Assembly: GCA_037447655.1 (NCBI GenBank) | Contig: JBBHKE010000501.1 | Location: forward strand, 1-64,000 | Length of the DNA: 64,000 nt | Source: Zygnema cylindricum | Lineage: Eukaryota; Streptophyta; Zygnematophyceae; Zygnematales; Zygnemataceae | Reading direction: 5' to 3' | Position numbers and translations under genes: made by a program | The notes under the pieces: model-generated | What the model was told of the DNA's origin: nothing | The model's database searches: none | The model's input: only the letters and a program-made list of their open reading frames with translations | Shown here: piece after piece, positions 6,227 through 64,000 of the stretch | How the letters are laid out: each line of letters begins with the position of its first letter | Position numbering within the stretch: position 1 is the stretch's first letter

Positions 6227-6239
6227 AATTTTCGTTAAT

Positions 6240-31700: not shown

Positions 31701-31948
31701 CCGTGCTCCCTCTCATCACAATAAGGCAAAGATTGCGTTATGCAGCTGACAGCCGACGGAGAAAAATCGGCGCTTTGAGAATCGCCGGCAGAAATGATAT
31801 CGCCTGTGGATCTCGAAAACTTTCCACGCGATATTGGCAAACTCGAAGGAGTCTCTTTCAACTCAGGTCCTTTCTCTTTCCCATCCATGACTTTAGAGGG
31901 CCGTTTCCTAGTAAGAAGAGAGAACAATCCAAGCTTGCCCATTCCCAT
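28736..31948 (-). CDS. LRR protein, 'outer arm dynein light chain 1-like' plant family, copy 1 (791 aa)
   Basis: Exons on the minus strand: 31948-30439, 30110-29964, 29724-29485 and 29214-28736. All introns are GT-AG, and the same phase (one leftover G) is kept at each junction. Residues 1-480 form an acidic, serine-rich, probably disordered region beginning MGMGKLGLFSLL. From about residue 488 there are 22-residue leucine-rich repeats: LKSLCLSHNSI, LHSLDLSHNRL, LRILNLGHNRL, IRELYLAGNKI, LAVLDLGGNKL and LNLAGNPI, then the capping motif LLPHLIYLNHNSVK. A basic S/R-rich tail (to residue 791) ends RSMSRLQG. The order, spacing and LAGNKISEVEGLHRLLKL motif match what I recall of plant proteins annotated as outer arm dynein light chain 1-like; they are not dynein motors and their function is poorly known. 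A G-box pair lies upstream. The frame is intact. A near-identical paralogue is at 36139-39437. Confidence 0.88.
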
Positions 31949-32233
31949 GGTGGCAGCTTAACCGGAAACAACTTTTTTCTAGAAGAACTCCACTCACTCT
32001 TAACTCAGAAACTGCCAAAACGTAAATCCTCTCACAAACAATTCAAGTGCTTAGGTGTAGCCAGAAATCCGTACAAATGGTTGTACTCTCGAGAGTTGAG
32101 AAGCGGTCTTCTCTCCCTTCTCGCAGCCCGGGATGTCACATTTGAACAGAGGATAAAAAGAGGATAAAATCCCCTCCTTTCAGGTCCTTAGCCGTAGTCC
32201 AGACAAACCCCGTGGACCATGCGCACAAGACGC

Positions 32234-32294
32234 CACGTGTGCAGTTTCTCCAAAGAGCGCCAGGTGTGCAGTTTCTCGTGCGACCTGACACGTG
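32234..32294. promoter_or_regulatory. G-box pair upstream of LRR gene 1
   Basis: Two CACGTG hexamers (32234-32239 in GCCACGTGTG and 32289-32294 in GACACGTGGC) lie about 290-350 bp upstream of the start codon at 31948. Both are kept in the duplicate at 39723-39728 and 39778-39783. In plants such ACGT cores bind bZIP and bHLH factors (light, ABA or stress responses); use here is inferred. Confidence 0.5.
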
Positions 32295-33322
32295 GCACGC
32301 CCACGCGTGCGGGGGATGCTAAAGGACGGGCCAGAGTGGACGGAGGAGGAAGGGAAGGAAGGGGCATGCAGAGGCCAGACGACAGGGGCAGGTGAGCCCG
32401 AGAAGGGAGAGAGAGGAAAGAGATAGAAGGGAGGAGGAGAGAGGGATAAAATAGAAGGTGGTTGTTCAAGCTTTGTCTAACGGACCGAAAGCGAGTTCTG
32501 ACAGGCGGAGAGAACTAAAGTGGGCGGCGTTAAATGAAAGTACAGTACAGTACACAGCTTTGCAGAGGGTTCAGGGTCGCTCGTGCGGTCAAACGTAAAC
32601 GAGACTTAAAATATCGTACGAACGCCGAGCGAAAAGCTACCGGTAAGCGACAGCTGTAAGCTGTCCTCCTGTCCGCGGCCTGGCAGAGACCATTCGGCAG
32701 CGACACGCGTAGAATCAAAGACACGAGTACAGGACAAATTCGGGTGTCGCATATTCGTTGGCCACCTGAGAAGAACGTGAGGTTCCTGAATCTCGATTAT
32801 TGTCGGACGGCAGTGGATGCTAGATATTTTTATACTTGTGATGTCGCTCCAATATTGGTGTATGTCCAAGGCTGGTCGTCGGCACATGTCGTCCGAAGTG
32901 CACCTTTGGCAAACGATTTCGTCCGTCTGCAGGAAGAGTTGCCCTTGTTGCGCGTTGTGACCAGGTTGACGAGGCCAGGGGGTACGTTTGACATACGCGC
33001 AGGAAGAGGTACACCGTACATATTTTGAATGTTCCGTTTCAAACTTCATAATAATTGGCGTGACATTCGAAACGCGGAACTGACGGTTAACCGCCTTTGA
33101 ACGTAGACAGTTGCGATTGTACCCTGCGAAACTGAAATTTAACGTTCAGCAGAAATAATATATTGTCCGTACGCTTAACGACCGTCAAAACGTTTTGTAA
33201 AATTAGGCGCCAAACGTCATCGTCTACCGTACTGTCCACTCCTTTTCGAACTCAGATTCGGCTGTATAAACTTCACTTCAATTCGACATAGATAGAACTC
33301 TACAGTACTGTACTGTACAGTA

Positions 33323-34910: not shown

Positions 34911-36138
34911 AAGAAAAAAAAAACGGTCAGTAACGGTCGGTCAAACAAAAAACCAAAAAAAATGAAAATTTTGTACTTTTTTTTTCCAACATTATTGTTC
35001 TTTGTACTTTTGGTATCGTGGAAGTACGTGGCATCATGATTAGCGTCGCAAATCTGACAGTCTGTTTCCCTCTCCTTAATACCCCAACCCCGCATGCTTT
35101 TCCCACCTCTTTTCCACTCCAATCACCTCCTGCACACACTTCTTAAACCTCTTCACCTATTGTCCAACACCTGCTTCCTCTTCCAAGTCACCATTTCCTG
35201 ATCCAAGATAACGCACGCATGTGTATTCCTCGCTTTCTCTTCCCGATCTGAGTTTTTCCTTCTTACATTCTGAACTATCACCCGAGGTGACACACTCATT
35301 TTCAGCTGTCACATGGCTAGCTTATAACATTGAGACATTACATTTCCACTTCCCTCTACACCACATTTCTGCGGAAATAAGTATCATCCAACCATGTCAA
35401 AGGGGACACCGGCAGAGACAGAAGGGTTGACCAGTGAACTGAGCATACTATTAAATTTATGTTCCTATGCCTTCACTAACCGTGGAGGCACAAGCAGTCT
35501 TAGTCAATCACTTTTCCTGTGGCGGTTCAACCCCCTCAACATCATCTAAAAGTCTTATGAAAGGGTCTTGATACACTTGGCATCTTCATAAAGATCACTG
35601 AATTTGAAACTCTGGGGGAAACAGCTGAAAATTGCAGAAAATCCTTGGCATTTCAAGTACCGGAAATAACTATGTTTGTAGAAGCCCTCACTTCATAACA
35701 TGTGTACCTTCAAACCATATTGTGAATCATGTATCACCATGTGGATCACACCTCATATGATATAGACTTCAGTTAACACTACAGAGTCACATCAAATAAC
35801 ATCAAGGTTCATGTTATACTATCCATACAGTATTGGCTCCTGAAAGTACGATTCAGAAGGAAAAACATTATGAGCACACCACTGCAAAGTTGCAAGCAAA
35901 ATATTTTGCAGACAAAAAAAGAAATCAATTCTTATGCAAAAAAATTAATTCTTATGCAAAAAACCGTCTCAGGAGGGCAAGAAACAAAAAAAGATGACAG
36001 TTTTGCAAAAGTCAGGCAACTTCTTATCATCTATCTGCTGTAAGTCACATGGACATGTAAAACAAACTTCCTTTCTTCAAAAATGCACTAGACAGAGCTG
36101 TGAAGTAAGTCATCGACAAAAGACCGATTCCTAGGACT

Positions 36139-39100
36139 TCATCCCTGAAGCCTACTCATACTCCTTGAGCGTATAATGCTTCTTCCCATGTTGAGGTCCG
36201 GTGTTCGAGCCCCATCGTTAACATTCTCCACATTAACAGTCTCGACATTAACGGGCAAAGTTGGTTGAGAGGCTCCTGCAAGGGACCAGCTACTAGGACT
36301 TCGTCTCGATGTACGGACGGATGTAGATGTTGTCTCCTCTTTCTTGGTTCCAGACACACCCCGTCGACGTGACCTCTCAGCCCTCTCACCTCCCAAACGA
36401 GAACTGCTTCGGACAGAACTTGTCGCTCCACCAGAACTGTGATTGCGGTGATGTCCCCCGGATGATTTTTTGCTTCCTGTTGGAGCTCGTGTGGAAGACC
36501 GTCCACTCCGTACTTGAGCCCCACTAAGACCTAGGCGGCTTCCATCTGCTGCAGCTTCTCTGGCAGAGATGGTCTTCACAGAGTTGTGGTTGAGGTATAT
36601 AAGATGAGGCAGCAAACCTGTCATGGAAAAAGATAAAAGAGAAATACATGAGCCTCGGAGTGGAAAGAAGACAGCTGGATGGGAACAAAAAACGTGAGAA
36701 AGCAAATGGAAAAACCTCAATGCAGTTCGGTTCTCAAGTAAAGAAAATGCTAACTTGAATGGCTTTCCATGCTTAACTTGCTCAGATAAAACCCCAAGCC
36801 GCGATTTTCTCACAGATCTCCGCCCTAAAGTCCTCACAACATTCTTTTTCTACAGGCTGTGAGACAAGAAGAAAAGGAAAACATACCAGTGATAAAGCGC
36901 TTGAAAGCATCTTCCCCAAGATTTACATGAATGGGATTTCCTGCCAAGTTCAGAGATTGCATGGACCCATAATTGGCTGCTAGTTGACTCAAAGCTTTTG
37001 TACTTGTCAGCTTGTTGCCGCCCAAGTCCAATACTGCTAGCTTCAGCAACCGGTGGAGACCCTCAACTTCACTTATCTTGTTCCCAGCCAGATAAAGCTC
37101 ACGAATTGAGGTGCAACTAGCCAGACCTGAACGCCCATACAACAGTGGAGATGTGTTAAATCGTGTAAAAAGACAATACCCAAAGAAGGAGATGAAAAAA
37201 CCATGACATTCACCAAATTATGAGTTCAAAGCCCAAAATAGCAATCCTTTAGAGGCTGAGAGCACAGCAGAGAGTTTCCCTACTACAAACAATAACTCCA
37301 TAATCTTGTCAAACTCACAACAATCACAAAAACGAAGAAGGCAGAAGCCCATATAGAACACTTACCATGTCCAATGCGTGTCAGACGGTTGTGACCAAGG
37401 TTTAGGATTCTCAGGCGAGTCATATCCCGCAGTCCCTCTATGGCGACAAGGCGGTTGTGAGACAGATCAAGACTGTGGAGACTGCGTGGCAGTGTCCCCG
37501 CATGTATGCGACCTGTAAACAACATTAAGATGTAAGTATAGTGCAGTAGCAAGTATCGAACAGAACATGTAAGTACCCACTGGTGACATGTAATTATCCT
37601 GCAGTAACATGCATATGTGATGAAATAATACGTTATTATCATAAGTAACACATAATTAGAGTGCAGCACCATACAAGCATCCTGCAGTAACACGCAAGTC
37701 GCATGCAACAACAGTAAAGCATCGTGCACTGGAAAGAACCTTAACTGTGAGGCTGACTTGATTTTCTCAATCCCTGCCATAACAACTTAAAATAAAAAGC
37801 AGTACAGACAGGAACATAACAACCATCGCAACAACCACAGAAGCTGAAAAATCACCATGCTCAATTTCAACCAATTTTGCATGAAGTCCTATCAGAGGGA
37901 TGACATCGAAGGTCTGTCTCTCACCAATGGAATTGTGTGAAAGGCAGAGACTCTTCAAGTAGTGGAATGATGCCAAGGCAGGCACAACCTTCAGAGCACG
38001 ACATGGAAAATTAGCCGCTCCTGCAGATCTATCGAGAGTCTTTGCACAACGATTCGCATACTCCACATCCATATCAAGTAAGGCCCCACTGCCTCCTCCT
38101 CCTCCTGATGACTCAAAGCCAAAGCCTTCCTGTCCTACAGACAATCCCCCTAACGCTGCCAGCTGTCCAGAGGACATAGCTTTCTTCCCGTGTGAGAATA
38201 CAGGCACAACTGAATGAGATGACTGCAATTCTTCCTCCTGAGAAAACTCTAGTAAATGAGGCTGTTCAATATCATCTGGAGAAAAGGAGCCCTCTAACGC
38301 AACTCGACTCACCCACTCACGAACCCTAGCCATACTCCCACCTGAAAGCCTCCCTGACAATAAAGCAGCCGCCAAAAGCCTTTTCTGTTCATTTGCATCT
38401 GCTCCTTTCAAATCAATTCCCTCCACGACAGTTAAAAGTTCATCACAGTTTCTGTCTTTGTTTTCGGCCATGGAGACCACTTGGCCCAAGACTTCTGGTG
38501 CACTACGAGCACTTGGCGCCTTCCAATCGGCTTCCATCTCTCCACTCAAAGGAGACAATACCTCGGAAGAGTAATCCTTCCCTCCTGAAACTTCCTTCAA
38601 AGATGCATTCAGCGATATACTTGGAGTAGCTCTCGCGACCTTGACCTCTCCCTCCCTCTCTCTGCTCCCCTCTCCCTCTGCTAGTGGGTCTGACGATGTG
38701 GATCTGTCTTGTTCAATTTGAACAGACCTTTCCTGATTTACTACCTCCAATGTTTGAGGCAAAGAGCTTAAAGTGGTCAGCTGGGAAGTCCATGCTCCAT
38801 CATCTCCTTCACTTGGAGCAGATCTAGTAGCATCTCCAAAATCATATTCTGACAGAACCCTAAATGTATTTCCAGGATCACTAAGATGGCATCCCATTCC
38901 CCCTTCATTATAAGTGCCTTGTCCACAACGCGACAAACTTTCATCACTTGCAGATCGTCGATGTACCATACTTCCTCCTCCACATCCTTCACTGACGTCA
39001 CAACCTTCTGATTCAAAGGCATGTACTTCACCACCAATATCAGATCCGCCTTGTACTCCATTTGGCTCGATTTCATCTTCACAATTCTCTTTCTGCGAAA

Positions 39101-39437
39101 CACTCCTTTCATCTTCCCGACCGTTTTGTCCCTTCATATCTCTTCCTTCTCCAAAATATACTCCAGGGTCACTCAGATGTTCGGGAACCCCGTGCTCCCT
39201 CTCATCACAATAAGGCAAAGATTGCGTTATGCAGCTCACAGCCGACGGAGAGAAACCGGCGCTTTGAGAATCGCCGGCAGAAATGATATCGCCTGTGGAT
39301 CTCGAAAACTTTCCACGCGATATTGGCAAACTCGGAGGAGTCTCTTTCAACTCAGGTCCTTTCTCTTTCCCATCCATGACTTTAGAGGGCCGTTTCCAAG
39401 TAAGAAGAGAAAACAATCCAAGCTTTCCCATTCCCAT
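36139..39437 (-). CDS. LRR protein, 'outer arm dynein light chain 1-like' plant family, copy 2 (792 aa)
   Basis: Exons on the minus strand: 39437-37925, 37512-37366, 37126-36887 and 36617-36139, with the same phases as copy 1. Exons 2-4 encode the same residues as copy 1 as far as I can compare. Exon 1 has about 20 substitutions and one inserted glycine (GCGGGSM against GCGGSM). An open frame runs on past the exon 1 donor into the intron (DVIPLIGLHAKLVEIEHG), but the GT at 37924-37923 is the likely donor: only splicing there keeps the 22-residue LRR spacing (SIG joined to RIHAGTLPRS) and matches copy 1, whose intron hits stops earlier. The gene is intact and its promoter G-boxes are kept, so both copies may be expressed. 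Confidence 0.87.
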
Positions 39438-39722
39438 GGTGGCAGCTAAACCGGAAACAGCTTTTTTCTAGAAGAACTCCACTCACTCTTAACTCAGAAA
39501 CTGCCAAAATGTAAATCCTCTCACAAACAATTCTGATGCTCAGGTGCAACCAGAAATCCGTACAAATGGTCGTACTCTCGAGAGTTGAGAAGCGGTCTTC
39601 TCTCCCTTCTCGCAGCCAGGGATGTCACATTTGAACAGAGGATAAAAAGAGGATGAAATCCCCTCCTTTCAGCTCCTTAGCCGTAGTCCAGACAAACCCC
39701 GTGGACCATGCGCACAAGACGC

Positions 39723-39783
39723 CACGTGTGCGGTTTCTCCAAAGAGCGCCAGGTGTGCAGTTTCTCGTGCGACCTGACACGTG
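39723..39783. promoter_or_regulatory. G-box pair upstream of LRR gene 2
   Basis: CACGTG at 39723-39728 and 39778-39783, conserved in sequence and spacing from the unit 1 promoter, about 290-345 bp upstream of the start codon at 39437. Confidence 0.5.
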
Positions 39784-40874
39784 GCACGCCCACGCGTGCG
39801 GGGGATGCTAAAGGACGGGCCAGAGTGGACGGAGGAGGAAGGGAAGGAAGGGGCATGCAGAGGCCAGAAGACAGGGGCAGGTGAGCCCGAGAAGGGAGAG
39901 AGAAGAGAGAGGAAAAAGGGAGGGGGAGAGAGGGATAAAATAGAAGGTGGTTGTTCAAGCTTTGTCTAACGGACCGAAAGCGAGTTCTGACAGGCGGAGA
40001 GAACTAAAGTGGGCGGCGTTAAATGAAAGTACACAGCTTTGCAGAGGGTTCAGGGTCGCTCGTGCGGTCAAACGTAAACGAGACTTAAAATATCGTACGA
40101 ACGCCGAGCGAAAAGCTACCGGTAAGCGACAGCTGTAAGCTGTCCTCCTGTCCGCGGCCTGGCAGAGACCATTCGGCAGCGACACGCGTAGAATCAAAGA
40201 CACGAGTACAGGACAAATTCGGGTGTCGCATATTCGTTGGCCACCTGAGAAGAACGTGAGGTTCCTGAATCTCGATTAATGTCGGACGGCAGTGGATGCT
40301 AGATATTTTTATACTTGTGATGTCGCTCCAATATTGGTGTATGTCCAAGGCTGGTCGTCGGCACATGTCCGAAGAGCACCTTTGGCAAACGATTTCGTCT
40401 GAAGTTCTGAACCTTGCGATTTTCGCGCTACGGACAAAGTGTGAGACTTTTACTCTCGACGTCTGCAGGAGAGTTGGCCTTGTTGCGCGTTATGATCAGG
40501 TTGACGAGGCCAGGGGGTACATTTGGAACAGAATCCTGGAGGCGCAGGAAGAGGTACACCGTACATTTTTTGAATGTTCCGTTTCAAAACTTCATAATAA
40601 TTGGCGTGACATTTGAAACGCGGAACCTGACGGTTAACCGCCTTGATCGTAGACAGTTGCGATTGTACCCTGCGAAACCTGGAGTTTAATTTAACGTTCG
40701 GCTACATCAGCAGAAATAATATCTTGTCCGTACGTTTAACGACCGTCAAAACGTTTTGTGAAATTAGGCGCCAAACGTCATCGTCTACCGTACTGTCCAC
40801 TCCTTTTCGAACTCAGATTCGGCTGTATATACTTCACTTCAATTCGACATAGATAGTCATAGAGTCATAGAGTA

Positions 40875-45278: not shown

Positions 45279-47235
45279 TTAATGATACTCCGGCCGTCCC
45301 ATTCCATGTAAATCACGAATACGTTTATGACCGGCATGATGTCCAAACTTTTTAATCGAAGCCCATTTTTCATTCTCCACTTCAAACTCCTCCAATTGAG
45401 CAGCCCCCAACGTCACTTGTTCTTCGTGATGGATCTGCACCAAAGACCAACCACAAGTAACGTAAACGAGCGCCTATCACTTAGAAATTGACATATTCAT
45501 ATATTTATTGAAGAAATTATAAAAGGATAAAAAGAATTTGCCACAGATGTTCTTGAGTAAGAGGACTGAAACAAGGACCTAGAGCAAAACTACAACTCCA
45601 CCGCTCTTTTCATGTGTGTAGTAGAGCTTCACGACGTGGTAAAGTGTCTATACAAAAACTGATATGATTAAGAAGCAGTGTTAGGTGCATGCTCCAGGAA
45701 TAGAGTAGCCTTTGCACATAGAAAAGGTTTTTCCGTAGGCTATTGAATGACAACCTAGCAAGAGTTACATAGCTAGTTAGGATCTGCTTGAAATTTATAA
45801 GTTTTAACATCCGGACTGGTCCAACTGCTTGGTACTAAAGCCAATGGTGGCACCAGTGATTTGTCAATGTGAAAAATGAGCATTAAACCGGTTTTCAAGC
45901 CATCCTCCAACATTAGACCATGGATCTTCGTGTGATACACAAAATATGATGTGCGTCAGTGATGTCACAATTTCTTACAAAGAAAAAAAATACATCACTG
46001 CATTCCATGAAAGTTCAACCTGTTTGGAACTAGTATTATTGACATGTTAGACCAAACCATAGCAACACAAGTCAACAGGTGGACACCATTAGAAAAAGAA
46101 AAATCAAATCACCTTCTCCAAAGCAGCAACTTCTGCCAAGTGTCTTTGAGCCAGCTTTCGCCACTTAAAGGCCAATCGCCCCTCCTTGCTGTCCTGTTCC
46201 ACAAGCTTGAATGTAATCCGTCGTTTTCTAATTGGTCGGTCGGGAAACTGCTCAATTGAGGCAAAAGAGGCTCGTACCGGCCGAGGTAAACCTCCGAGCA
46301 TAAAAAGTTTTTCTTCAAATTCTACAACCACCTGGTCAGTCAAATCAAGAAAACAAGGGATGAGAATGCAGTATTGGTAAACAAGTTCCTTCCCAGTGTC
46401 CCAATTCCCAGGGTAGAAGACATACAATGGTTAGACATAATCCATATATCCATAACGGAATGTACACGTCAGTCATTATCTGATGGCAATGTTTTCCACG
46501 GGCATACTGATACTTATTTGCTTCACCTCTTTGGAAACCAATGAAATAGTGACTGTCGCTCACTTAAAGCCGTAAAATGCCACAAAAAATGAAACACGAT
46601 GTCAAGCCAAAATCTGCCATGCATGAACCTTATCTTTGACTGCTTGTTATCAGGTTATCCTTGACTGCAAATGCATCAGGTTTTTTCAAAACTTCAAAGC
46701 ATGAATGAAAACCTTAGGTCAAATCGATCCCAAGCAGCAAGGAACTGCAACATCAGATCATTCAATAGAGTTCCGGAAACTACCGACCAAAAAATACCAA
46801 AAGTCAGTTACATATTTCGTTTTGGCAAAATCATCTTTCTCCCATCCTTCAAATTATAATGGCTTAGTTGGAAGGTAGAACATGAGACTTACACACTATG
46901 CAATTGGTAGCGCTTCAGAGTTAGAATGTACAATCATGGAACTTAGGAAACCATAACAATATTAAGTGAGAGCTCCATACATTCTCCGCCTGTTCCCTTG
47001 TTGCCATCTCCACTAAAGCAGCAGACACTTTTCTTTTGACATCAAGGTCGTGGAATAAAAGATTGGCAGATACAATTTCTCCGAACTGAGATATAGCACT
47101 TTTCAGAACATCAACGGAAACGGCAGGAGACAAATTGTCAATATACACAGTTTTTTTAACCTGCTCTTCAAACTGTTCTATTTTTAAATTTTCATCCTCA
47201 GTAGCTGCTAAGTGGGACGGTGAAACCCCGGCCAT
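45279..47235 (-). CDS. RRM-domain protein, EDM3/AIPP1-like (209 aa, three exons)
   Basis: Exons on the minus strand: 47235-46981, 46331-46113 and 45434-45279, all GT-AG with phase 0 junctions. Residues about 27-85 form an RRM: KTVYIDNLSPAVSVDVLKSA is the first strand (RNP2-like) and helix, and AALVEMATREQAEN carries the RNP1 strand position in an atypical form. Exon 2 supplies LGGLPRPVRAS, DRPIRKRRITF and a helical segment FKWRKLAQRHLAEVAALEK; exon 3 an acidic helix (EEQVTLGAAQLEEFEVENEK) and a basic tail ending GRPEYH. This order resembles Arabidopsis EDM3/AIPP1, which acts with EDM2 and ASI1 in proper transcription through intronic heterochromatin. The resemblance is from memory. Without splicing, exon 2 would run four codons further to an in-frame TGA near 46104, a less complete protein. 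The gene is head-to-head with the signal peptidase gene. Confidence 0.8.
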
Positions 47236-47474
47236 GGAGCCTTTGGTATGAGAATGTCGACAAGCAACTCGTATACAGTAGTGCCTTAGTCTTCAATTCT
47301 TAATGGCTGCTCACATCAGACGGTGAAGCAATAAGATCGAACCAGCTTCCAGTTCAGCAGCGTGCATGTTACGTTACGGTGGTAGAATCGCGGCAAAGGC
47401 AGTACGAAATTATGACTGCAGGCGCTTCCATTTAGAAATAGCATTCCTTAGGCTTAGTTGCATTAGTCGCCACA
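47236..47474. promoter_or_regulatory. Bidirectional promoter region (239 bp between start codons)
   Basis: The RRM gene starts at 47235 on the minus strand and the signal peptidase gene at 47475 on the plus strand. The interval must hold both 5' UTRs and promoters. No TATA box is obvious, which fits housekeeping bidirectional promoters; this is inference from layout. Confidence 0.6.
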
Positions 47475-49544
47475 ATGCACTCTTTTCTCTTCCGTGCCAA
47501 CACTCTTGTCACGCTTGCGGCAACTGCACTTGCCGTATTATGCTTACTAGCATCCGCAACAGACTATGTACATCAGGCTTCGCCAACGGCTCTTATAAAG
47601 GTGTGATAATGTGTGAAGGTGGGAATGAGTCGGTGCCTTTTTTTTTGTGTTTTGTGTATGTGATCATTACATGTGACGATGCTGTGATTTCTGTGTGTGC
47701 AGGTGGCGAAAGTGGATCGGTTTGGCAGGTGGCCGGCAGGTCCTTACACAGGAAATGATGAGGTAGTGGACTCTACCTATTCTCTTTTTCGCTGAAGGAA
47801 TGCGAAGATATTGTTTAGTCTTCTTCATTTCTACACATTCAAATTTCACATATATACGTGCAGAACGATAGGAATCAGGGAGTTGCATGGAAAATGCTTG
47901 GTGTGTTAAGTGAACCTTTCTTGGTCTTATCTGATGATTTTGACACTATTGCAGCCAAATTGTGTGGCTTCTTTCCATTTTTTATCAGTGTAATGCAAGC
48001 TGTAATGCATAGAAATTTAAGTAAAGTAAACCCGCATTGGCATTGTGATTTATGGATGTCTTTGATCGGTCAAACTAACACATATGTAGAGGTAGATCTT
48101 ATGTGGATCTATATGTCAAAGAAGTCTTGAGTTGACCTTGTTTGGATATGGAACTCGTGTACTTGGTTCTTGTAGGCTGCAGACCAGAGCTAAGTTTGTT
48201 GAACAGGGTCTGCTTGAAGCGTGACTTCGTGTGCTCTCGATTTTTTGTCTCTTGCGCCTAATTCTCGCAAAGAGCCTGCTACAAAGACACCTGGCAATGG
48301 CTTTTTCCAACGGCAGGTTGTGTTGGACAGGTGGGATTAGTCCTGGACGTTACGGCAGACCTTTCATCAGTTTTCACTTGGAACACCAAGCAGGTATGCT
48401 GATTAAGTATACATCGAAAGAAAAATGCACAATGATTTGCTTCAGTCTCTTTCCTATTCTTTTTCATTGCATGATCAAAACATGGCATGCCAAAGTTCCC
48501 TTGCAAGCCTCACACATTACTTCATGCGATGTCTCAAAAGTTATGGTCCTTACACCTAGGTAGAATTCCCTAAAGCTGGCTGGCAGCCTCTGTTGTCCTA
48601 CTTGTTTTGCAGCTTTTCGTATTCATTTGTGCGGAATATGAGACGCCAAACAACTCTTTGAATCAGGTGATGGAACCAATCTGTGACTTTTTGTAGATTG
48701 GCCTAGGCATGCAGTTTTAGTTCCTTCTGTTTTCTCCACGACAAAACAGTCTTTAAGCTAGCTTAATTTCAGCAGGATGTTGCAACTGATAAGACAGCTG
48801 CTTCATTGACCTGGCGTGTGTTACGTTTTGCCCATAGTTGTGTAGAGTGGCTGAAGACTTTTATAGTGGAAATTATGAACTGGAGTAGGCTGACTGGCTG
48901 GACTGGTCTGGCTGTTATGTTTGTGGAGATTTGTTGATCCTATTTGAGCTAATTTTTAAGGTTATGACAGACATGGACATATGAAAACCATATAAGTAAC
49001 TTCTTTCGCTCCAAAGAGTTTCTCAATTATCCTTAGTACTTGTGCACAAACAATTGCCCCTTTCGTGTAGTTTTACGGTTGTCACAGTTTTTCTTTTTGT
49101 CATTAATAAAATTCGGGACAAGCACTCATCAATCTGTGCAAGCTCCTCAAAATTTTGTTCATTGCAGGTCTCTCTCTGGGATCGTGTGATTGAACACAAG
49201 GATGATGCAAAGCTAAGGCTACCATTCAACCGAAGCAAATATTACTTTATAGACCAGGTGCATAGCCTGCCCATCGATATTCACCCTTGCAGATGTTTGG
49301 ACTTATATCATGAGTTGTCGGGGTCTTCTCTTACATTCAGGTGTCTTTGTCATCTTCGGAGCTGTTTTTACTTTTAAGGTCAAAATGATTGAACATCTTT
49401 CTGTGGCTTTTGCAGGGCAATAATTTGAAGGGGCGACAGTTCAATCTTACTTTGTATTGGAATGTCATGCCTGTTGTGGGTGGTCTGTACACTGGCAAGA
49501 AAGTATTTTCTGGGTTCACCCTCCCAACTGAGTACTTGCGTTAG
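47475..49544 (+). CDS. SPCS3: Signal peptidase complex subunit 3 (SPCS3 / SPC22-23), 173 aa, six exons
   Basis: Exons 47475-47600, 47703-47762, 48331-48393, 48613-48666, 49168-49257 and 49416-49544, each ending on a codon boundary with GT-AG introns. The product begins MHSFLFRANTLVTLAATALA, a single N-terminal membrane segment with a cytosolic start, as in plant SPC22. The lumenal part has the family motifs VDRFGRW...NDE, LDVTADLSSVFTWNTKQ, LFVFICAEYETPNNSLNQ, VSLWDRVI, KYYFIDQGNNLKGR and FNLTLYWNVMPVVGG. SPC3 subunits are non-catalytic ER-membrane partners of the SEC11 peptidase that remove signal peptides from secretory proteins. Length and motif order are normal for the family. The short exons (54-129 bp) leave no long open frame, so a simple ORF scan misses the gene. 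It shares a 239-bp promoter interval with the RRM gene. Confidence 0.95.
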
Positions 49545-51449: not shown

Positions 51450-54400
51450 TGGTTAAAAAATGTCTCCAGACTTCCTATGACCTCTAGTAGCCGATTTAAG
51501 ACACCAGGATGTGAATTCTCTAAATGACGCCTACAATTATGGAACGACAAATGCAAACGCGGTACATTTGGCATATATCGTGATGTACATGTTCGCAAAT
51601 TCCGGCACGCTAATCAGCCTCCGCAGGTGGGAACAAAGCTAACTAATAAATCTGTTTGTATTATGGACGCTCATATGTTTGTTGCGACCATGAATTATTT
51701 TATTGCAGGCTTTATCATCCATGGAATAGTTAGCAATGGGAGGCAACAAAGCAAGATTACATAAAAGATGACATGTAAAAGTAACATGCCCATTACAAAA
51801 TAATGGAATGACATGCCTTATCATTTGAATCTTTAAGCATTTTGTTAGCACATAGTTAAAATGACGGCTAATGTAGGCAAAATGGAAGGATGTAGTTTAG
51901 AAAGTATGTTAGGAAAGTAAGATAAGACAGTACATTTGTTTTTTTTTTTTTGTCCGAAGTATATCTGATATAATCATAGTTATCAGATACAAATTTAGAG
52001 CTTACCATACTCATAAGAAAAAAAGCTTAAAAAAAACTACTGCACATCAAATTTACACAGAAAAAACAACGGTTTACAAGAGGAAACGAATCAAGAAGTA
52101 TCTTGAGAGGGACTGGGATTTTCATTGAAGGATCATACTATTTTTGCTTCCCTTTATTCCTTTGAATGCAGTTTGGTCATTCGGATAAAGACCAACATGT
52201 TTGCACCGTTCTTCCTAGGTCAACCCTTCATCACTGACCTCTTGATAGTTGCATTTAGTATGTGCTCAAATCTTTCAGCTCGTTTAGTACCTTGTTCCAT
52301 TGTACGGCAGCACTATAGCTTGTAGTGACACGTCGCCCAATAAACTCGGCCCTCGAGGGCCGAGAGCATCACTTTACTGAGCTAGGGTTCACGTCAGCAA
52401 GTACAATAATGTCTAAAATTCGTGTGGGCGTAGTACGGCTCGACGGCTGATTTTATTGGTAATCAACCTGCTTCCGTCACGGCCGGCTAACCATTTTCTC
52501 GCGAGTCTAGCCGGCCGTTTTCTGGTGGAATCAGCAACGCAGCGTAGCTGGCGCATAGAAACCACACGAATGGACCGCGAGAGCAGCTTTCGCGAAACTA
52601 AGGCGACTAAAATTGTGCATAGAACGAGTTTCTTTAGCGCAGTGTATAGAGACTTCAACTGTGACATAGAAACGGAAGTGGTCAGCGCAAGAGCGGCTTA
52701 CCAGGTCGAACTACAACTTGGAGCATACAAAATTAAAAATAAGGGAGTAACCGAAATAAGGAGCGCACTGAAATGAAACAACAGATTTAGTGCGAGCAGT
52801 GTGACAAAAAAATTGATTTATCCGATCCGTTTGAAGTCGAGACGTGGGAGAGGCCTATTGGCAGATGTGAGATAAACGTAACACGAAACAAAGACAGGCC
52901 ACGACTGGTGACAACTTCGACGGTGGGTTAAAAAATATAATTTGGGCCGTTTAAACGTATTCCAATGGATGGCAGAGATTGAGGCCGTTGATCTGGAATT
53001 CTGGTACCTAATTGGAAACTGGAACTTGTGTGGATTGTACTTTTTTGACACTTCCGTGTTCATTTGGCGGCGGACATTTTCTTCCTACGCATCAGTTACA
53101 CTGGTTTGTCCGATTTGGCCTACAAAATTTGGCGAAGCCTGCGAGGAATATGTAGCCCGCCAAAGAATGTTGACCGGCCGTGAGGAAAACGAGTTGACTT
53201 TGAGAAATCAAAGTCATTGATTCTGTTTGCCGTCAATCCGTACCAAACTTTTAACGCATTACGTACGTTTTGTACTTACTTGCGCCAAGTAACAATCGCT
53301 CATGCGAAAGTGTTTCCCTTTTGAATTGATCGCCTAGTAAAACGGTTTAAATCGTTGGAAAAGATAAGCTATGCGACGCGAAATAGCGGTTGGATTGTAG
53401 TGTGCCTCTGTCCTTAGCTCGCTGAGCGTTCAAACGCACCACCGAACGTTTAAACACTTACCGTACTCTTACCGTACTTTATCCATGGGACCGACCAGCC
53501 GACACGAGTCGGTTACTGTTGTAGTTCCTGAAGTTAGCTGCACATGCTCAGTTTGGTACTTTGGTCGTCTAGCTGACGGCGAAATCTCGCAGTATCATTG
53601 GTCAAAGAAATAGGTTGACCACGCTGCGCCACTATCCGGCCAGTTCATTAAAAGCACGCGCTTCACATTCTTGTCCAAAACGCCAACGCTTCCACGTGTC
53701 TCCACCTTCCAGGAGTTAAAAGGACAGTCCACGTTCGTCCACGCCACGCTAAATTACTTGTCCAAGGCACCGTCGTTTACGTGTCATCATTACTTGGATT
53801 GCATAAAATCTTAGCTGTATATTTCTGCCACGTGTATTAATCTAGTAAAGGATTTTAGGATGACCTCACATGTTGAAGGCGATCGGTTTACAATTACGAA
53901 CAGTGCAAAAAATCAGAATCGGGCTCATGAGTTATTTTGACGCCAACATTTTTGCGGACCTACCTCGTCGCCACGTACTCGTCACCGACATCCTAAAGAT
54001 TGTAGACGATTCGATCAAATAAAAAGGACAGGATCTTCAGCGGGATCAGGAGAAAACTCCATTGTGTAAAAAAGAGCCTTCCAGTTGCCCAAAAAGTTAA
54101 CAGACAAGCGAGCACTTTTCCTTCCCAAACAAACTTTTCAACCACTTGGATTCATTTTCTGCATTGCCATTATTACACACAAAAAACGGCCTGCTCAATT
54201 CAGAAAATTCAAAAATAATAGGCCAATCCTGTAGATACTAATTCTAATTGGCCTGCGATAGTTTAAAGAAAACGTAACGCAGTTGTGCGGGGGGTTGAAA
54301 CAGTAATGTAACGTCCTTCCAGTTTTCACCCATGGGCTACCACTGTACGATCTGAGCAGTGTCTTTTCGATTGAGATGTACGGCAAGCGTGAATATAAAA

Positions 54401-55395: not shown

Positions 55396-58300
55396 ATGGC
55401 CTCCATCTTCCTGAGGTGTCACAGCGGGGGCGAGGACAGCGAGTGCACTTGCCAGGAAGTTTCCAAAGACAGGTCAATTTCGTTTTTTTTTTGTGCACTC
55501 CTTGGTTCGAAATTTTTTGGTGCATGAGACCGTACAGGGAGGACTGTACGGACATGTGGTGGAATTCTACGAATATTTAGTGGAATTGTACGGATTTTGG
55601 TGACGCTGTACGGATGGTATAATAATGTAGGGGAATGGGGGGTCTAGAATTAGGGAAGGAGGTTCGAATAGGGGTGCAATTTTTTTTTTTTAGTGCATTT
55701 TTACGTTTTAAATCTCCTTTTTTAAATTTTTGTTTGTGATTAATTCAACAAATTTGGTTCGAAATTTGTAATTAATTTCTTTTTGGACTAGTACACGAAA
55801 AAAAAAATTCTAGGGACGTTTTCCATACATATATATATTATTTTCCAAGATTTGTCAATTTTTTATGTTTTTATGCTTTTTTTGTTGTTTTTATATTTAT
55901 ATTCTTCGGAATGATTTTTGTTTCCGATCCATTTTTTTCTAGTGGAGATTCCAGATCAGTTTAGAAAACCTAAAAATAAAACACTTTTAGACTTAGAAAT
56001 ATATTCTAGAAATTTGCAACTTTTTTTTTTTTTGTCCTTTTCGTTTGGCGATTGTTTTTCTTTTATCAATACCTGCAATATGTATCTAAAATACTGCCCA
56101 ATTTTCTGGTTCAATAATTAACCAGCGCTGTTATCCTTTTTTTTTTTCCTAAAAAATACTCTTTTGTACATAAAATATTTTTTTTGACCCAAAATTATTT
56201 CACCTTAAATCAGGTGTCCAATCTCACCCATTCACCCATTTCTTTTTAATACTATGATTATTATGTTATTATTATTTATTGTTATTATTATCTATCATCA
56301 TTTTATGATTATTATTATTTTATTGTTATTATCATTATTATTATTATGATTATTAGGATTTTATGATTATTTTTGTAGTTATTCATTACTGTTGCTATTT
56401 GTTATTGTTGTTTACTATTACTATTATTATTCTTTATTTTCTGGCATCTTTGGAAAAAGGGTATTTGAGATTTTGGGTATTTTCCCCATCCCTTCAATTT
56501 TTCTTCTTTACATTTTTTTCTTCTTTTTCTTTATTTTTTATGATTATTTATATATATTATTTTTTGCTGCAGTATTATACCGCGGAGACCGAAGCTGGAG
56601 GAGATCGCGGTGGCGCCCATTTCGGAGGAGCTCAGATGCCCACTATGCAGAGAGGTGGGGGGGGAGGGAAGGGAAGGGAAGAGAAAAAAAGAAAAAAGAA
56701 AATAGGAAAATTTACTATGCAGAGAGGTGGGGGGGGGAGGGAAGGGAAGAGAGAAGAAAATAAGAAAAAAGAAAATAGGAAAATCCACTCTGCAGAGAGG
56801 TGGGGAGGGAGGGAAGGGAAGAGAGAAGAAAATAAGAAAAAAGAAAATAGGAAAATCCACTCTGCAGAGAGGTGGGGGGGAAGGGAAGGGAAGAGATAAG
56901 AAAAAAAGAAAAAAGAAAATAGGAAAATAAGAAAAGAAACAACAAGGAAAATAAAAAAATAAGAAAAGAAAGAGTTAAGAAAGAAAAGGAAAATAAGAAA
57001 ATATAGAAAATGGAAAATAGGAAGAGGGAAAGAGAGATAGAAAGGAAAAAAAAAGAAAAAATCAATGACAGAAAAACGAAATAAAAAAAGAAAGGAAGGA
57101 AAGAACGAAAAAAGAAACGAAACGGAAACTTTTTGACAAATGAAAAGGAGTGGCCGTGGAATTTCGTTGTTAGTCAATTTATCATTTCGCCTTAAAACAA
57201 CTTCAATTCTAGTTTTTCGGGAAATTGAAAAGCTCTGATTGGCCGAATAGTGTACAGAAATAGGTTTCCAAAATAAAAAAAGAGGTCGAGATAAACAAAG
57301 CAGGGAGCGGAAGGGGGAGAGGGAGGGGGAGGGAGAGAACGAGAGGGAGGGGCAGAGGGAGGGAGGCAGAGGGAGAGAGGCAGAGGGAGAGGAAGAGGAA
57401 CGGAGAGGGGGAGAGGGGAGAGAGGGAGAGGGAGGGAGAGGAAGAGAGTGGAAGAGAGGAGGGAGAGGGAGAGAGAGGAAGAGAGTGGGAGAGAGGGAGG
57501 GAGAGGGAGTGAGTGAGAGGGAGTGAGGGAGGGAGAGAGGGAGGGGGAGACTGGGAGAGAGAAGGGATGGAGAGGGAGAGAAAGGGAAGGGGAGGGAGAG
57601 GGAGCGAAAGGGAAAGGGAGGGAGAGGGAGCGAAAGGGAAAGGGAGGGAGAGAGGGAAAGGGAGGGACAGAGAGGGAGAGGGAGGGACAGAGAGAGGGAG
57701 AGGGAGGGACAGAGAGGGAGAGAGAGAGGGGAGGGAGAGGAAATGAGAGGAGAGGGAGGGGAGAGGGAGGGAGGAGGGAGGAAGGGAGAGAGGGAGGGAG
57801 AGAGGGAGGGGGAGAGGGAGGGAGAGAGGGAGGGAGAGAGGAAGGGAGAGGGAGGGAGAGAGGGAGGGAGAGGGAGGGAGAGAGAGGGAGGGCGAGGGAG
57901 GGAGAGGAAGGGAGAGGGAGAGAGAGGGAGAGGGAGGGAGAGGGATGGAGAGGGAGGGAGAGGGAGGGAGGGGGAGAGAGAGAGAGCGAGAAGGGGAGAG
58001 AGGGAGAGAGAGGGAGAGAGAGGGGGAGAGAGAGAGTTATCCCTGATTCAAATCTGATGCGTTTGGTTCTCCAGGTCCTCGACAACGCTGTGACAGCTGT
58101 CTGTGGCGACACCTTTTGTCAGTAAGCCCTCTCCCGGGCCCTCCTCAGCATGCCACGTGGGCAAGATCAGTGCGACACGTGTCACGTGACATGTCACGTG
58201 GCAGAGTACATGTGACACGTATCACAGGGTGGGTTCCTCTGACAGCTGGCTGCGGGGGTGCAGGGAGTGTCTGGTGGAGGCGAGTGCAGCAGAGGACGCC

Positions 58301-61300
58301 ACCTGTCCACAATGTTTTGAACCACTGGAGGTGCCTGTCTCTCTCTCTCTTTCCTCTCTCCCCTCTCTCTTTCTCTTCTCTCTCTCTTTTTCTCTCTTTC
58401 TGGCACCTCTCTCTCATTCTCTTCTTTCTTTCACTCTCACCCTCCCTCTCCTTCTCTCTCCTCTTTCGCTTTCTTCTCTTCTCTCTCTCTCTCTCTCCCT
58501 CTCACACGTTTTTTCTCCACATCGATCTTCTGTCTTACCCCTCAAATTCCTCCTTCCCGCCTCTCCCTCTCTCTCCCATTTTGTCCTTTCCACTGTCTCT
58601 TCCCTTTCTCTCCGTCACCCTTTGTAACTCACCTCTCCTGTCCTCTCTGCATTTTCTCTTTTCCCTCTTCCCTTTCTCCCCTTCTTGCTTTTCTTTTTCT
58701 CTTTTCCCTCTTCCCACTTTTTTCCCTCTTTTCTTCCCCTCCCCTCCCTCCCTTTCCCTCCATCCCCTTCCCTCCCTCTCCCTCCAGTCTGGCCCCATGC
58801 CCCCTTGCCGCATGGCCCGCAAGCTCCTTGGCGGCACCCGAGTCCGCTGCGAGAACTCCCTCTCTTTTGACCTCTCCGTTTCTCGCTTTACACCCGCCGC
58901 CCTGCGGGGCTGCCCGGCTCTCGTGGCCTTCCAGGACTACCCGGCGCACCTGCAGGCGAGTGGAAACCCTAACCCTAAAATGACTCAGCAGTGCCGGGAG
59001 GGAAGAGTGAAACGTAGGAGTTTGAAGGCGGGGAGAGAAAGGTTGGAGGAGTAGGACTTGGAGGAGTGAAGTATGGGAGAGGAAAGGCTGGGAGAGGAAA
59101 GCGTGGGAGAGGGGAAGGCTGGGGGAGGAAAGTCTGGGAGAGGAAAGTCTGGGAGAGGGAATCCTGGAAGAGTAAAACCTGGAGGACTAAAAAGAGGAAA
59201 CTTTGAAAGATGAATGCGTAAAAGATCGGAGGGCTGAAAAACCAAACCGTAAATGATCAAGTTCAAATAGGGCAAATTCAGAAAGAGCAAGCTCTAGATG
59301 TTTAAACCACTGCACTTGCAGGTGGGTTAAAAACTTAGAAAAAACCAAGCTCTGAATGAAAAAAGAAAAGTATGAAAAAGCAAATTTAATCAGATTCTTG
59401 AAGAGCAAATTCTGGTAGAAATGTCCAAATTCTGAAAGGCAAATGTTCTAAAAGCAAACCCTATGAGGCACGAATTATAGTGTGGATGTGGAGATGTGGA
59501 GCGGGTGGCTGTTTTGGTTAGGTAGGTTGTTTTTTGATTGGCAGTAGTTTAGAGTAGATTAAATCAAGTGGAAAGCCAATCCGAATTGAATCGATGTTTT
59601 GAATATAAGCGAGGAATTCTCCGAATTTGATGGTTTTAGTCTAGAGTGAAAGAGACTGTATGGAATTTAATGGATTGGCACATGTAAAATAGCGGTTTTG
59701 GTAACGATATTAGTGTGGAAAGAAATGGACAAATATTTTCAAGACTTGGCAACCACCATAGAATCTTAAACTTTGAAAATCTAATAGACTGTTTTAAGTT
59801 CGGAAGTGCTATCAAACTCCAAGGGAACTCCAACAGCCAATCGAAGAAATTGTTGACAACCAAAAAAGGATAATGCTTTTAGATTAGTTTTTCCAGTACA
59901 AATCCTGATCTTAATTTCACATATTAGGTGTTGTTCTTGTTTAGAAACAATATGAATTACAAAACTCTTGCAAACTGGAAGTTTGCAAAATTGACTTCTA
60001 TTACAGAAAAAGAAGAATTTTGCCTCTCTCTCCCTCTCTTTCCCCTCTCCCTCTCCCTCCCCTGGTCCCCCCTCCTCTCTCTCTCCTTATAATTCATAAA
60101 CATATTATTACATATTATTACATATTAAATCATATTAAATATATCATATTTGTTATGGATCTCTGTCGGCTCGCCTTCTGATTCCAAACACAATCAGTCT
60201 GGAACTCTCCTGACCTGGGAAAACTATACCAAAACGTTTTCTACGCAATTGTAAACATGGTCACAAAAGCGATTGACAGTAAGCAAAATGCTGATGGTAA
60301 GCGTGACAGGGTTCATTTCCTTGTCAATAACCTGGCCAGTTTTCTGGCTGGCTGTCTGGCTGACACGCGGCACCTCTTGCAGACCTGCCGCTACGCCTTG
60401 CTGGCGTGTCCGTACCAGCTGGCAGGCTGCCAGCTGGCAGTGGAGAGGGCGGCATACGACTTGCACTGCCAGCAGTGTGAATACCGCCCAGAGATCTGCC
60501 AGTGAGTGGATAGGAGGCAGGAGGGAGAGGGAGAGAGAGAGGAAGAGGAGAGGGAGAGGTTGAAGTAGGTTTGAGGAAGCAGAGGAGAGGAATGTGATGA
60601 GAGGGAAGAGGAACGGAGGGAAGTGGTTGGAGGAGGAGTGGGAGAGAGATAAGGGAGCGGGTGGGAAAGAGGGAGAAAAGGGAGAGGCATGAAGGGAGGA
60701 AAAACAAAGTGCGGAAAGTTGTGGAGAGTGGAAGGAGGGTCGGAAGGCGGCTTCAAAGTGTCACTGTGGAGTGCATGCAGTCACTGAGAATGTGCCACGT
60801 GGCAGCAGGTGTGGCCAGGAGATCTCCCGGGCGCAGAGAGAGGAGCACAATTCTATTTGTCCGGCCGGAGATGATCCATGTCCGCATGCTCAGTTTGGCT
60901 GTGTTTTCAGAGGGGGACGAGCCAAAGTAGTCGAGCACCTCGTCATTTGCCCTTACGAGATGGTCAAGATGGCTTTGTACAAGCCGGTGAGGATCCATGG
61001 CTTCCTTTTAAAGTTGCACCATTTTTATGCTTGCTCCATTTTTGTCTTGTAGTGAATGCATTGTAGTTTGCCTTGTCAGTTGGTTAGAGAGTTTAACCTT
61101 TTCTCCATAACTTTACAAAGTTTAAAGTGGCGTCTATATAACAAGAACTAAGATATGTATGAACAAGGATAACAAAAAAAGACGACCTTTTTTCACACTT
61201 TGTTACACCTAAGTTTTGCAGAACACCAAAAACTGCGTGTCTTTTAAATGTTCACATCCTGTTACTTAAATTTGAGTAAAATACTAAACGGATAAAAACG

Positions 61301-64000
61301 ACAAATTTGATCGTCTCAATGCAATAACTAATGCTTCTGTTATGCTGTCGCACTTTAAAGATATAACATTACACACCCTTTTTTGCATTTTATTTATGAA
61401 AAGTTTAATTGGAGCCTTGTGAAAGCGTTGTCCGAAGACAACAAAGCAAACTAAGATGTGATACCGTCGCCCCTATTCCAAAAATGTATCCACATTAAAT
61501 TAGAATAACTTCTAAGATTTAAGATGGCACGCCCTTTATAATACAATTCACCGTCTATAAGTGTTAACTGAATTGACTACTTGATTTCGATAGGTTGTCA
61601 GTTCTTGTTACAAGACTGATCACTCATAGGGTAGTGAAGATTTTACCTATAAATGTTGTCTCACTCTCACACTTTATCCCAAAATTATGAAAACTTTATT
61701 TTTCACACACTTCAAAATAATATGTTCCCAAAATGTGCCCTCAATGTACTTTTATGACACTTCAAAATAATATGCTATGCATAATGTTTGTGTATTTTTA
61801 ACAAAAACAGCATCCCTTATAAAATTATACCAGAATGCGGATAATTCCTCTGCAATCAAAATTGTAAACTTTTGAACTTTTGTTATCAAACATAATTGTT
61901 CATGGAAAACAAGGAACTTTGAGATATCTTTGGGAATACTTTGAAGTTACTCATGTCATTTTACAGTCAAAATTGAAAGTTGAAGACTCTTTGGCCTTAA
62001 TGTTTGTCAAGTTAACAATATTTTATATTTGTGTAGAAGAGAAAATGAAAATAGTAACACTTATCATTAAATACTAAACAGAAAGATGGAAATATTTCAG
62101 GTTCCGAACTAAATGACATTTATTTGATGAGATTCTAATCTTTTGTTCAATGTCAATATTAATTCGATGAACTCGCCTTGACTGTAATTGTTTTCAGTTG
62201 ACAAGAAGCTTAAAATAAAAACTATGGTAACAGGGGAGTTGCTGGAAGCTGACGCATTCTTTCTGCAATCAGGGTTTTAAAGCTTATGTTATTTTTTATG
62301 CTTGCGGATTTTGCAGCTGCCTGATAATCCCATCAAACCTAAGCAGATGATTAGCAGGAAAGCTACTATGGATAAGTTCACAGACAAAAGCACTGCACAA
62401 CTAAAATTAGTTTGAAAAAAAGATTGTTTCTTAAGTAATTTTTTTTCACAGAGAGCGAGACAGGAAACTTGACGGAATTTTCGGCATAAGCGTTTCGATG
62501 CAAAGTACTTTTCTTTTTCTTTTAGGGTTTTCTTGTATTTTTGTATTTTTTTCTGATGCTGAAGGGAGAAACAGGTTGCGGAAAAGGCAGTGGACGATTG
62601 TTTGTCGGCAGTAAAAAGTGAAGCCTCAAATTTGCAGTGGAACCATAAGGGAGAGACAGAGGAGTTAGAGAAGCTTTTTGAACAAGTGAAGGAGGGAGCG
62701 TTGTTTAAGTTTGATGAACTCACAAAGAATGTTCCAGAACAATTAAGGTACAACGTCCACTTTTTACAACTGAAGAAATTTTCGGTTGTTGGAGAAAGGT
62801 GTCGTTTAGTGTTTTTTAGTGCATTCTATGTTCCAGTTTCTTGTTCAGATAATGACTAATTGTTCACAACGTCGAAAATTATGTGTTCTAGGCACGAAGA
62901 TTACCTTTCAATAAGGTTAGATTGTTGAAAAAAATCTTTAGTGACTAGATTTGTCAGGAAAAGTTGTGGATCTCTCTGAGGTTGAGTGGTTCTATGCGAG
63001 GATAAGTTATTACATAGGAAGTTTTTTAGAAGGCTGTTTTAACCAAAATAAAATTTTACAAGTCGAGATTTATACTGGTGCAAGGAGATGGCTAGGATGT
63101 GAAGAAGCTGAAAAAAGAACGTGCTCGCTGTTTAAATGTAAGAATTGGTCACATTAGCTTTTTAATTGAGAAATAAATGAAAGACAAACTACGGTGTTGA
63201 ATCGATTATCAATACTCAGAAACATCTTAGGAAAAATAGTTCAGTGAGAGGGAGAGAGAAAGAGGTGGGAGAGTGGGAGAAAAGGAGCAATTTCAAGGTT
63301 CCATTTTCCAGTTACCGTGATGTAAAAAGCTTCTAAATTGAACAGGCATTCTTATGGACTTCCCCTTTCCTCTTTATTCTCTTCTCCTATCCATCCCCAT
63401 TTTTCCTCACTCTCCCATTTTCCTCACTCACTGAGCGTGAAGGCATGGTTGTTAACAGAATAGAGGCAAAAGAAAATTTAATGGAGGCTCTTGGCGCTTT
63501 GGAGCTCCTACCTCCCTCTCCCTCCTCAGATTCTTTCCGTCAACTCACAACTCCAAGGTGGACTCTCTCTCTATCTCCCTCTCCCTCTCCCTCTCCCTCT
63601 CCCTCTCCCTCTCCTTATCAGCTTTTGCAAAACCAATAGCATGAGTAGTGCCCAATCAACCTTAAATCAACCATAAATACTGTGGATAACCTCGACTTTG
63701 TCGATATTTGTGGTCTCTTTAAAATTTGCAGTTATCCTACAAGTACGAGTACCGAAAGCGGCAAATCCGAAGAAACCCTATTTAGTTTGGAGGACGTCTC
63801 TCTCGCGACAAATAATTTTTCGCAGGCGAATCTGCTCGGGAAAGGAGGTTTTGGATCCGTTTTTCGAGGAATGCTATATGGAACTCCGGTTGCAGTCAAA
63901 CGTCTCCATCCAGGAGGAAACGCTCGAGAATTCGAATTCGAAGTCAGTATCCTGCAACGGATTCGACATCCTCATGTGGTGCTTCTCATGGGCTGTAATC
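55396..64000 (+). CDS. RING finger - TRAF-type zinc finger - Pelle/IRAK-like protein kinase fusion (3' end beyond window)
   Basis: Exons: 55396-55472, 56573-56654, 58075-58121, 58264-58330, 58788-58955, 60383-60501, 60809-60986, 62575-62747, 63459-63557 and 63732 to beyond 64000. Every junction keeps phase; an in-frame TAG precedes the ATG. Numbered without an optional exon near 62318, residues 48-86 are a RING finger (CPLC, CGDTFCQEC, CPQC) with Asp65 where the usual His ligand stands. Residues 92-246 carry TRAF-type zinc fingers (RKLLGGTRVRCEN, HLQTCRYALLACPYQLAGC, CGQEISRAQREEHNSIC, FGCVFRGG...VEHLVIC). Residues 247-304 are a charged helix. The kinase starts about 354: FSLEDVSLATNNF, glycine loop 373-380 (GKGGFGSV), Lys393 in VAVK, helix-C Glu407, RIRHPHVVLLMGC. 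Expected roles are ubiquitin ligase plus Ser/Thr kinase, probably cytosolic since no signal peptide or membrane span is seen. The intron after 58955 needs a GC donor. Splitting into two genes is possible but unlikely, because phases match throughout. Confidence 0.82.
56641..56930 (+). repeat. 72-bp minisatellite that duplicates an exon end and its 5' splice site
   Basis: Four tandem units of about 72 bp start at 56641, 56713, 56786 and 56858. Each begins CACT(A/C)TGCAGAGAGGTGG, which in the first unit is the last 14 coding bases of exon 2 plus the GT donor, followed by purine-rich spacer. The array therefore contains four copies of the splice donor context. Confidence 0.9.
57299..58036 (+). 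repeat. ~740-bp polypurine (GGGAGA)n tract in intron 2
   Basis: Nearly every base on the plus strand is G or A, in GGGAGAGGGAGGGAG-type repeats. Together with the preceding GA-rich part from 56655, most of the 1.4-kb intron is purine. It generates large spurious open frames on both strands that should not be annotated as proteins. Confidence 0.95.
58154..58219. promoter_or_regulatory. Cluster of four CACGTG hexamers inside a 142-bp intron
   Basis: CACGTG at 58154-58159, 58176-58181, 58183-58188 and 58195-58200, then CACGTA at 58216-58221. The arrangement is near-palindromic (GACACGTGTCACGTGACATG). The host intron (58122-58263) separates the two halves of the RING finger. A further CACGTG lies at 60796-60801, just before another exon. 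Regulatory use is inferred. Confidence 0.5.
58331..58787 (+). repeat. Polypyrimidine-rich intron (TCTCTC, CCCTCTC)
   Basis: The intron between the RING finger exon and the first TRAF zinc finger exon is almost wholly C and T on the plus strand. This is opposite in strand bias to the purine intron only 300 bp upstream. Confidence 0.9.
58956..60382 (+). other. Intron of the RING-TRAF-kinase gene with telomere-like and GGGAGAGGAAAG repeats
   Basis: After a GC-type donor the intron holds AAACCCTAACCCTAAAA (58966-58982), the plant telomere-type repeat in short form. A purine-rich GGGAGAGGAAAGTCT repeat lies at 59077-59170, and a 3-unit ATTACATATTA run near 60105-60130. No exon was recognised within it. 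Confidence 0.6.
60987..62574 (+). other. Large intron with a candidate extra exon near 62318
   Basis: Most of this AT-rich stretch shows no coding signal. At 62318 a strong acceptor (ATTTTGCAG) is followed by 32 open codons in the required phase (LPDNPIKPKQMISRKAT onward) before TGA at 62414. A donor would have to be the weak GTTTGA near 62411. If used, it would add about 30 residues between the zinc fingers and the helical region. Confidence 0.4.
63571..63612. repeat. (CTCTCC)n microsatellite just after a 5' splice site
   Basis: Pure CCCTCT hexanucleotide repeats begin about 14 bases after the donor at 63558. This adds to the polypyrimidine bias of introns in this gene. Confidence 0.9.

Follow-up and report, generated by a model that had tools for sequence, protein, structure and literature searches.

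Receptor signalling usually assigns kinase and ubiquitin ligase to separate steps. Ligase–kinase fusions are already known, in the plant U-box kinases (PUB kinases) and in KEG (Keep on Going, Arabidopsis). The PUB kinases carry a Pelle-family kinase and an E3 domain on one chain, and kinase-then-U-box is the usual order in land plants; in KEG the RING precedes the other domains. In animals, a RING with TRAF-type fingers and an IRAK/Pelle-family kinase are found on TRAF6 and IRAK, respectively, which are separate proteins. A RING followed by zinc fingers is also the layout of the SINA/SIAH ligases.

The sequence studied here, hereafter the window, comprises the first 64,000 bases of a contig that ends at 68,908 (C387:1-64000), from a genome of 352,776,454 bases in 2,689 contigs. 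At the end of the window, we identified what is probably a single gene for a cytoplasmic protein with a RING, TRAF-type zinc fingers, a linker, a Pelle-family kinase of the receptor-like cytoplasmic type and a helical-repeat tail, which would couple phosphorylation to ubiquitination. The one-gene reading is based on the predicted exon chain, the intact kinase motifs, the complete ligand sets of the RING and the fingers, and the matching exon structure of a paralog across the fusion point. The paralog, on contig C1585, provides the strongest of this evidence.

Like the PUB kinases, the predicted protein has a Pelle-family kinase and an E3 domain on one chain, but in place of a U-box after the kinase it has an N-terminal RING and TRAF fingers. 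No U-box is present among the Pfam matches of our 860-aa model, which includes the kinase C-lobe beyond the window, and this contig (to 68908) carries none of the genome's 19 U-box matches. The window kinase presumably resembles the U-box kinase group, and the D-x-G motif lacks the F in both, reading DMG in the window gene and DVG in a U-box kinase on C1038 whose sequence (C1038:143001-147000) we read as a kinase-then-U-box gene. A kinase match followed by a U-box match on the same strand, less than 1 kb apart, is found in the same genome on C1038, C2136 and C1269, in agreement with the first-pass annotation, which had called the domain order at our locus reversed relative to U-box kinases. 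Together with the plant-type kinases, these kinase-then-U-box pairs indicate a streptophyte. The further statement of the first-pass annotation that the U-box follows the kinase in the known plant fusions does not cover all cases: KEG, like the window gene, has a RING, a kinase and repeats on one chain, its repeats being of the ankyrin and HERC2-like types (PMC5385374). Neither family appears among the Pfam matches of the 860-aa model, which has TRAF-type fingers, and the paralog carries Sel1 repeats. With TRAF6 and IRAK/Pelle, the locus shares the RING, the TRAF-type fingers and the kinase family; however, the MATH/TRAF-C domain of the TRAF family is absent from the 13 Pfam matches of the 860-aa model, whose 3′ end is uncertain, and from the 12 of the paralog model. 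The SINA/SIAH ligases likewise have a RING and then zinc fingers, and their Sina_ZnF profile (cut-off 32) matches the window part with 31.3 bits, the 860-aa model with 28.0 and the paralog with 42.8, but the window gene has four TRAF-type fingers and a kinase, and the SINA substrate-binding family is absent from the Pfam matches of both models.

Ten exons in the window (55396-64000, plus strand) join into a single open frame with consistent phases, as seen by translation across the splices. They use AG acceptors and GT donors, the sole exception being a GC donor after 58955. Exon 1 (55396..55472) supplies a putative start codon and residues 1–25 and is tentative; an in-frame stop lies upstream at 55372. 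The RING is spread over exon 2 (56573..56654), which encodes its first half (CPLC) and equals its C1585 counterpart in length (82) and phase, exon 3 (58075..58121) and exon 4 (58264..58330), which encodes its end (CPQC) and has 67 bases. For exon 4 we placed the start at 58264, which yields canonical RING spacing and the same length as exon 4 of the paralog; the alternative at 58246, also in frame, disrupts the RING spacing and was rejected. Exon 5 (58788..58955) encodes the first TRAF-type zinc finger and is followed by the GC-AG intron, exon 6 (60383..60501; 119 bases, again as in the paralog) encodes the second, and exon 7 (60809..60986) the third and fourth. A 1.6-kb intron (60987-62574) separates these zinc-finger exons from exon 8 (62575..62747), which encodes a charged linker between fingers and kinase that is conserved in C1585. 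Exon 9 (63459..63557) is a second linker exon whose phase is conserved in C1585, and exon 10 (63732..64000 at the window edge, continuing to contig position 64277) encodes the N-lobe of a Pelle/RLK-family kinase. The C-lobe, correctly placed outside the window by the first reading of this DNA, is found in exon 11 (64711-65299), which completes the kinase. Exons 12–14 (66059-67677) are tentative, and the 3′ end of the gene is uncertain and may run past the contig end. A join of exons 13 and 14 through a non-GT donor was dropped for a GT-AG join, with both exons still tentative.

Two repeat arrays accompany the 5′ part of the gene. A 72-base tandem repeat in four copies occupies 56640-56928, its unit taking in the 3′ end of exon 2 and the splice donor, and intron 2 contains a 720-base purine-rich repeat tract (57315-58036). 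Elsewhere in the window, positions 1-10000 are very AT-rich (GC 22–28%) and carry many degenerate short tandem repeats, unlike the remaining sequence. A large direct duplication (27656-33295 and 35058-40856, ~7.4 kb apart) has pieces that are 90–99% identical, and its second copy includes a leucine-rich-repeat open reading frame (ORF) at 36837-37217. An ORF on the minus strand at 46924-47292 encodes an RRM RNA-binding domain. When ten other window ORFs were searched with Pfam, the curated cut-off was passed by LRR families and RRM_1 only, and tRNA and Rfam scans (gathering threshold) of the whole 64-kb window returned no matches.

The predicted chain carries, in order, a RING (residues 48–86), four TRAF-type zinc fingers (112–234), the linker and the kinase, as the first-pass annotation had proposed for a single frame. 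In the 426-aa part encoded within the window, zf-TRAF (6.9e-8), zf-C3HC4_2 (3e-7) and PK_Tyr_Ser-Thr (1.2e-6) all scored above their curated Pfam cut-offs, while Pkinase reached 23.5 bits, below its cut-off of 31.7 as long as the C-lobe was absent. With the C-lobe included, the 860-aa model matched Pkinase at 368–619 (6.4e-41). In the same model, zf-TRAF matched in two stretches (2.2e-9; 38.3 bits, cut-off 27) and zf-C3HC4_2 at 47–86 (7.3e-7), the RING scoring above three Pfam cut-offs. The helical-repeat tail is clear in the paralog, which ends in nine Sel1 repeats (3.4e-91); the signal in the window gene is a weak TPR_2 match at 834–859 (0.01), below its cut-off.

The RING ligand positions of the window protein read C-C-C-D-C-C-C-C, with Asp at the fourth position, where His is usual. 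The RING of the paralog has all-Cys ligands and scores 20.0 bits, just below the Pfam cut-off of 21. If the Asp and the low score signify degeneration, the protein would lack ligase activity and consist of a kinase joined to a zinc-finger scaffold. We regard this as unlikely, because the other seven ligands are Cys in both proteins and the window RING passes three Pfam cut-offs. In plant RING-D proteins, Asp can be one of the ligands.

The four zinc fingers (112–149, 156–179, 186–204 and 211–234) follow the pattern C-x(n)-C-x11-H-x3-C, and the paralog likewise carries four. In the PDB, the RING is matched best by RING1B, COP1, RBBP6 and TRIM proteins, TRAF6 ranking lower, and the fingers match FBXO30 and SIAH. 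The label 'TRAF6-like' used in the first-pass annotation is therefore too specific and fits the layout only, since the RING matches many RING families, the fingers are near those of FBXO30 and SIAH, and the model has no MATH/TRAF-C domain. The action of TRAF6 next to IRAK in animals stands as a fair functional lead, but not as homology of the whole. A true animal-type module derived from TRAF6 and IRAK would account for the combination of a RING with TRAF-type fingers and for the presence of TRAF6 among the PDB matches, some chains spanning residues 41–207. Such a derivation is extremely improbable: besides the missing MATH domain and the closer resemblance of RING and fingers to other families, the best 60 of 2733 PDB matches of the kinase are led by plant LysM, lectin, Pto-type, FERONIA and BAK1 kinases, with IRAK4 following, as expected from the proposed kinship with Pelle and plant receptor-like kinases. 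Judged by its sequence, the kinase belongs to the RLK/Pelle family. Its catalytic motifs are intact (GKGGFGSV glycine loop, VAVK, HRDLKPAN and DMG at the DFG position), and the D-x-G of relatives read from this genome is DMG or DVG as well. The top 19-residue hydropathy mean is 1.63, so the protein has no long hydrophobic segment on this simple scale, which is not a dedicated predictor; on the same scale it lacks a transmembrane segment, as do the cytoplasmic RLK/Pelle kinases (RLCK).

When the genome was searched with the window protein, C1585 gave matches to both the zinc fingers and the kinase, all on one strand. The gene model built there has ten exons that correspond to window exons 2 to 11, with all entry phases equal and identical lengths for three exons (82, 67 and 119); no counterpart of window exon 1 was identified at this locus. 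All exon ends of the paralog fall on GT or AG sites, and its frame is open throughout. However, the ends were placed manually with reference to the window gene, and the agreement is thus not fully blind. The two proteins have the same domain order and align collinearly from the RING through the end of the kinase. Identity is 29/66 in the RING (z 13.4), 53/149 in the zinc fingers (z 21.0), 15/56 in the linker of exon 8 (z 8.0; none of 2,000 shuffles as good) and 96/182 plus 61/108 in the kinase; exon 9 alone, at 8/30, falls short of significance, since 79 of 2,000 shuffles do as well. Nine introns of equal phase are common to the two genes, eight of them at exactly corresponding positions of the alignment and one displaced by a single column, and three of the nine sit between the zinc fingers and the kinase. 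The two kinases pair in three trees (support 89/89, 92/92 and 84/87), which share rows and carry long-branch warnings, the pair being starred by the program in none. Because a second gene shows the same build, the fusion appears to be genuine and inherited, and not a gene-prediction artefact.

We considered whether two neighbouring genes, one encoding a RING/TRAF-zinc-finger protein and the other a receptor-like cytoplasmic kinase, had been wrongly chained. In-frame ATGs occur in exon 9 of both paralogs, just upstream of window exon 9 and in the paralog kinase exon before the glycine loop, and the genome contains both ligase-only and kinase-only relatives. In addition, a copy on C626 (C626:454571-460000) has a RING/zinc-finger half that is 98.9% identical to C1585:200633-206080 but departs abruptly from it ahead of the linker and kinase, and 18 kb of that contig (C626:442001-460000) yielded no kinase match; an incomplete duplication, a haplotype difference or a misassembly may account for this copy. 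Conservation between the loci points the other way, namely that of linker exon 8 and of the phases of the three finger-to-kinase introns, with a matched phase-2 donor and acceptor at both. Read-through past exon 8 would stop after 37 residues in the window gene and after 11 in the paralog, and these endings are not shared. The order also repeats at C1585 and at a third locus, C2160. Assuming 113 to 2,000 kinases in the genome, the probability that a kinase falls by chance in the 5 kb downstream of either locus, on the same strand, is 0.0008 to 0.014 for each; these figures serve as a guide only because the lower count is one of exon matches from 109 of 507 candidates scored. In the window gene, the kinase exon contains no in-frame ATG from the preceding stop to the glycine loop, which implies that it needs upstream exons. 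Two wrongly chained genes are thus a very unlikely explanation.

A single locus might instead yield two products, the full-length fusion and a kinase-only or ligase-only transcript, through an internal promoter or early polyadenylation. The in-frame ATGs in both exons 9 and in the paralog kinase exon would permit a kinase-only transcript, and the 1.6-kb intron between fingers and linker would also suit such an arrangement. The fused form would in any case require the conserved linker to be retained, and we judge a two-product locus improbable, with the single fused protein as our preferred reading.

Besides the window gene, distinct zinc-finger loci are found on C1585 (with its partial copy on C626), C2160, C948 and C2434, and two of these four have a kinase match. 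At C2160, finger matches at 53482-53682, 53027-53155 and 52092-52259 are followed by a kinase match at 48382-48819 that is 51% identical to C1585, all on the minus strand and thus in the order and strand relation of the window gene; the locus is known from finger and kinase matches alone, with a RING not among them. A further RING and TRAF-finger gene on C948 (C948:106001-116000) has its RING (51.6 bits) within a single ORF. The stretches examined around the zinc fingers of C948 and C2434 contained no kinase match. A genome profile search with PF02176 returned three places, the window gene not among them because introns split its fingers, so that the genome counts are lower bounds. Kinases of this type are numerous and often clustered (on contigs including C2131, C1480, C30 and C1098). 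At five kinase loci (C1739, C1098, C145, C2141 and C1080), no RING or finger match was found in the 10–20 kb examined for each. Sel1 repeats follow the kinase on C1739 and C145, and divergent kinase-like copies flank the kinase on C1080. In a search of viral_contigs for the RING–TRAF–kinase family, 42 stretches fitted the pattern and none encodes a relative.

In the mechanism that we propose, the zinc fingers and the repeat tail would dock the protein on a partner complex. Kinase activity, through upstream phosphorylation or autophosphorylation, could then switch the RING ligase, by analogy only, and the switched ligase would act on neighbours or on the protein itself. One molecule might in this way relay a phosphorylation signal and ubiquitinate the complex. 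Among tested cases KEG comes closest: its kinase activity promotes the ubiquitination of KEG itself (PMC5385374).

We tentatively propose, as a possibility that goes well beyond the one-gene reading, a fusion family of two genes and a probable third that places a TRAF-type ligase and a Pelle kinase on one polypeptide. With its Sel1/TPR docking tail, it would be an independent, plant-lineage, single-chain counterpart of IRAK–TRAF6, in which ~64% of aligned zinc-finger residues differ between members while all nine introns of the shared region are kept. We found no report of a RING, TRAF fingers, a Pelle kinase and a Sel1/TPR tail together in our searches of open-licence papers, including PMC6118397, PMC11096116, PMC5385374, PMC4378952 and PMC12196615. 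The presence in this genome of both a U-box after the kinase and a RING–TRAF module before it suggests that Pelle-family kinases gained an E3 module at least twice. A conserved one-chain version would allow the direct question of whether phosphorylation gates the ligase in cis. It would also set module types of the animal IRAK–TRAF6 pair on plant-type kinases, and so raise the question of whether the pairing of kinase and TRAF arose more than once.
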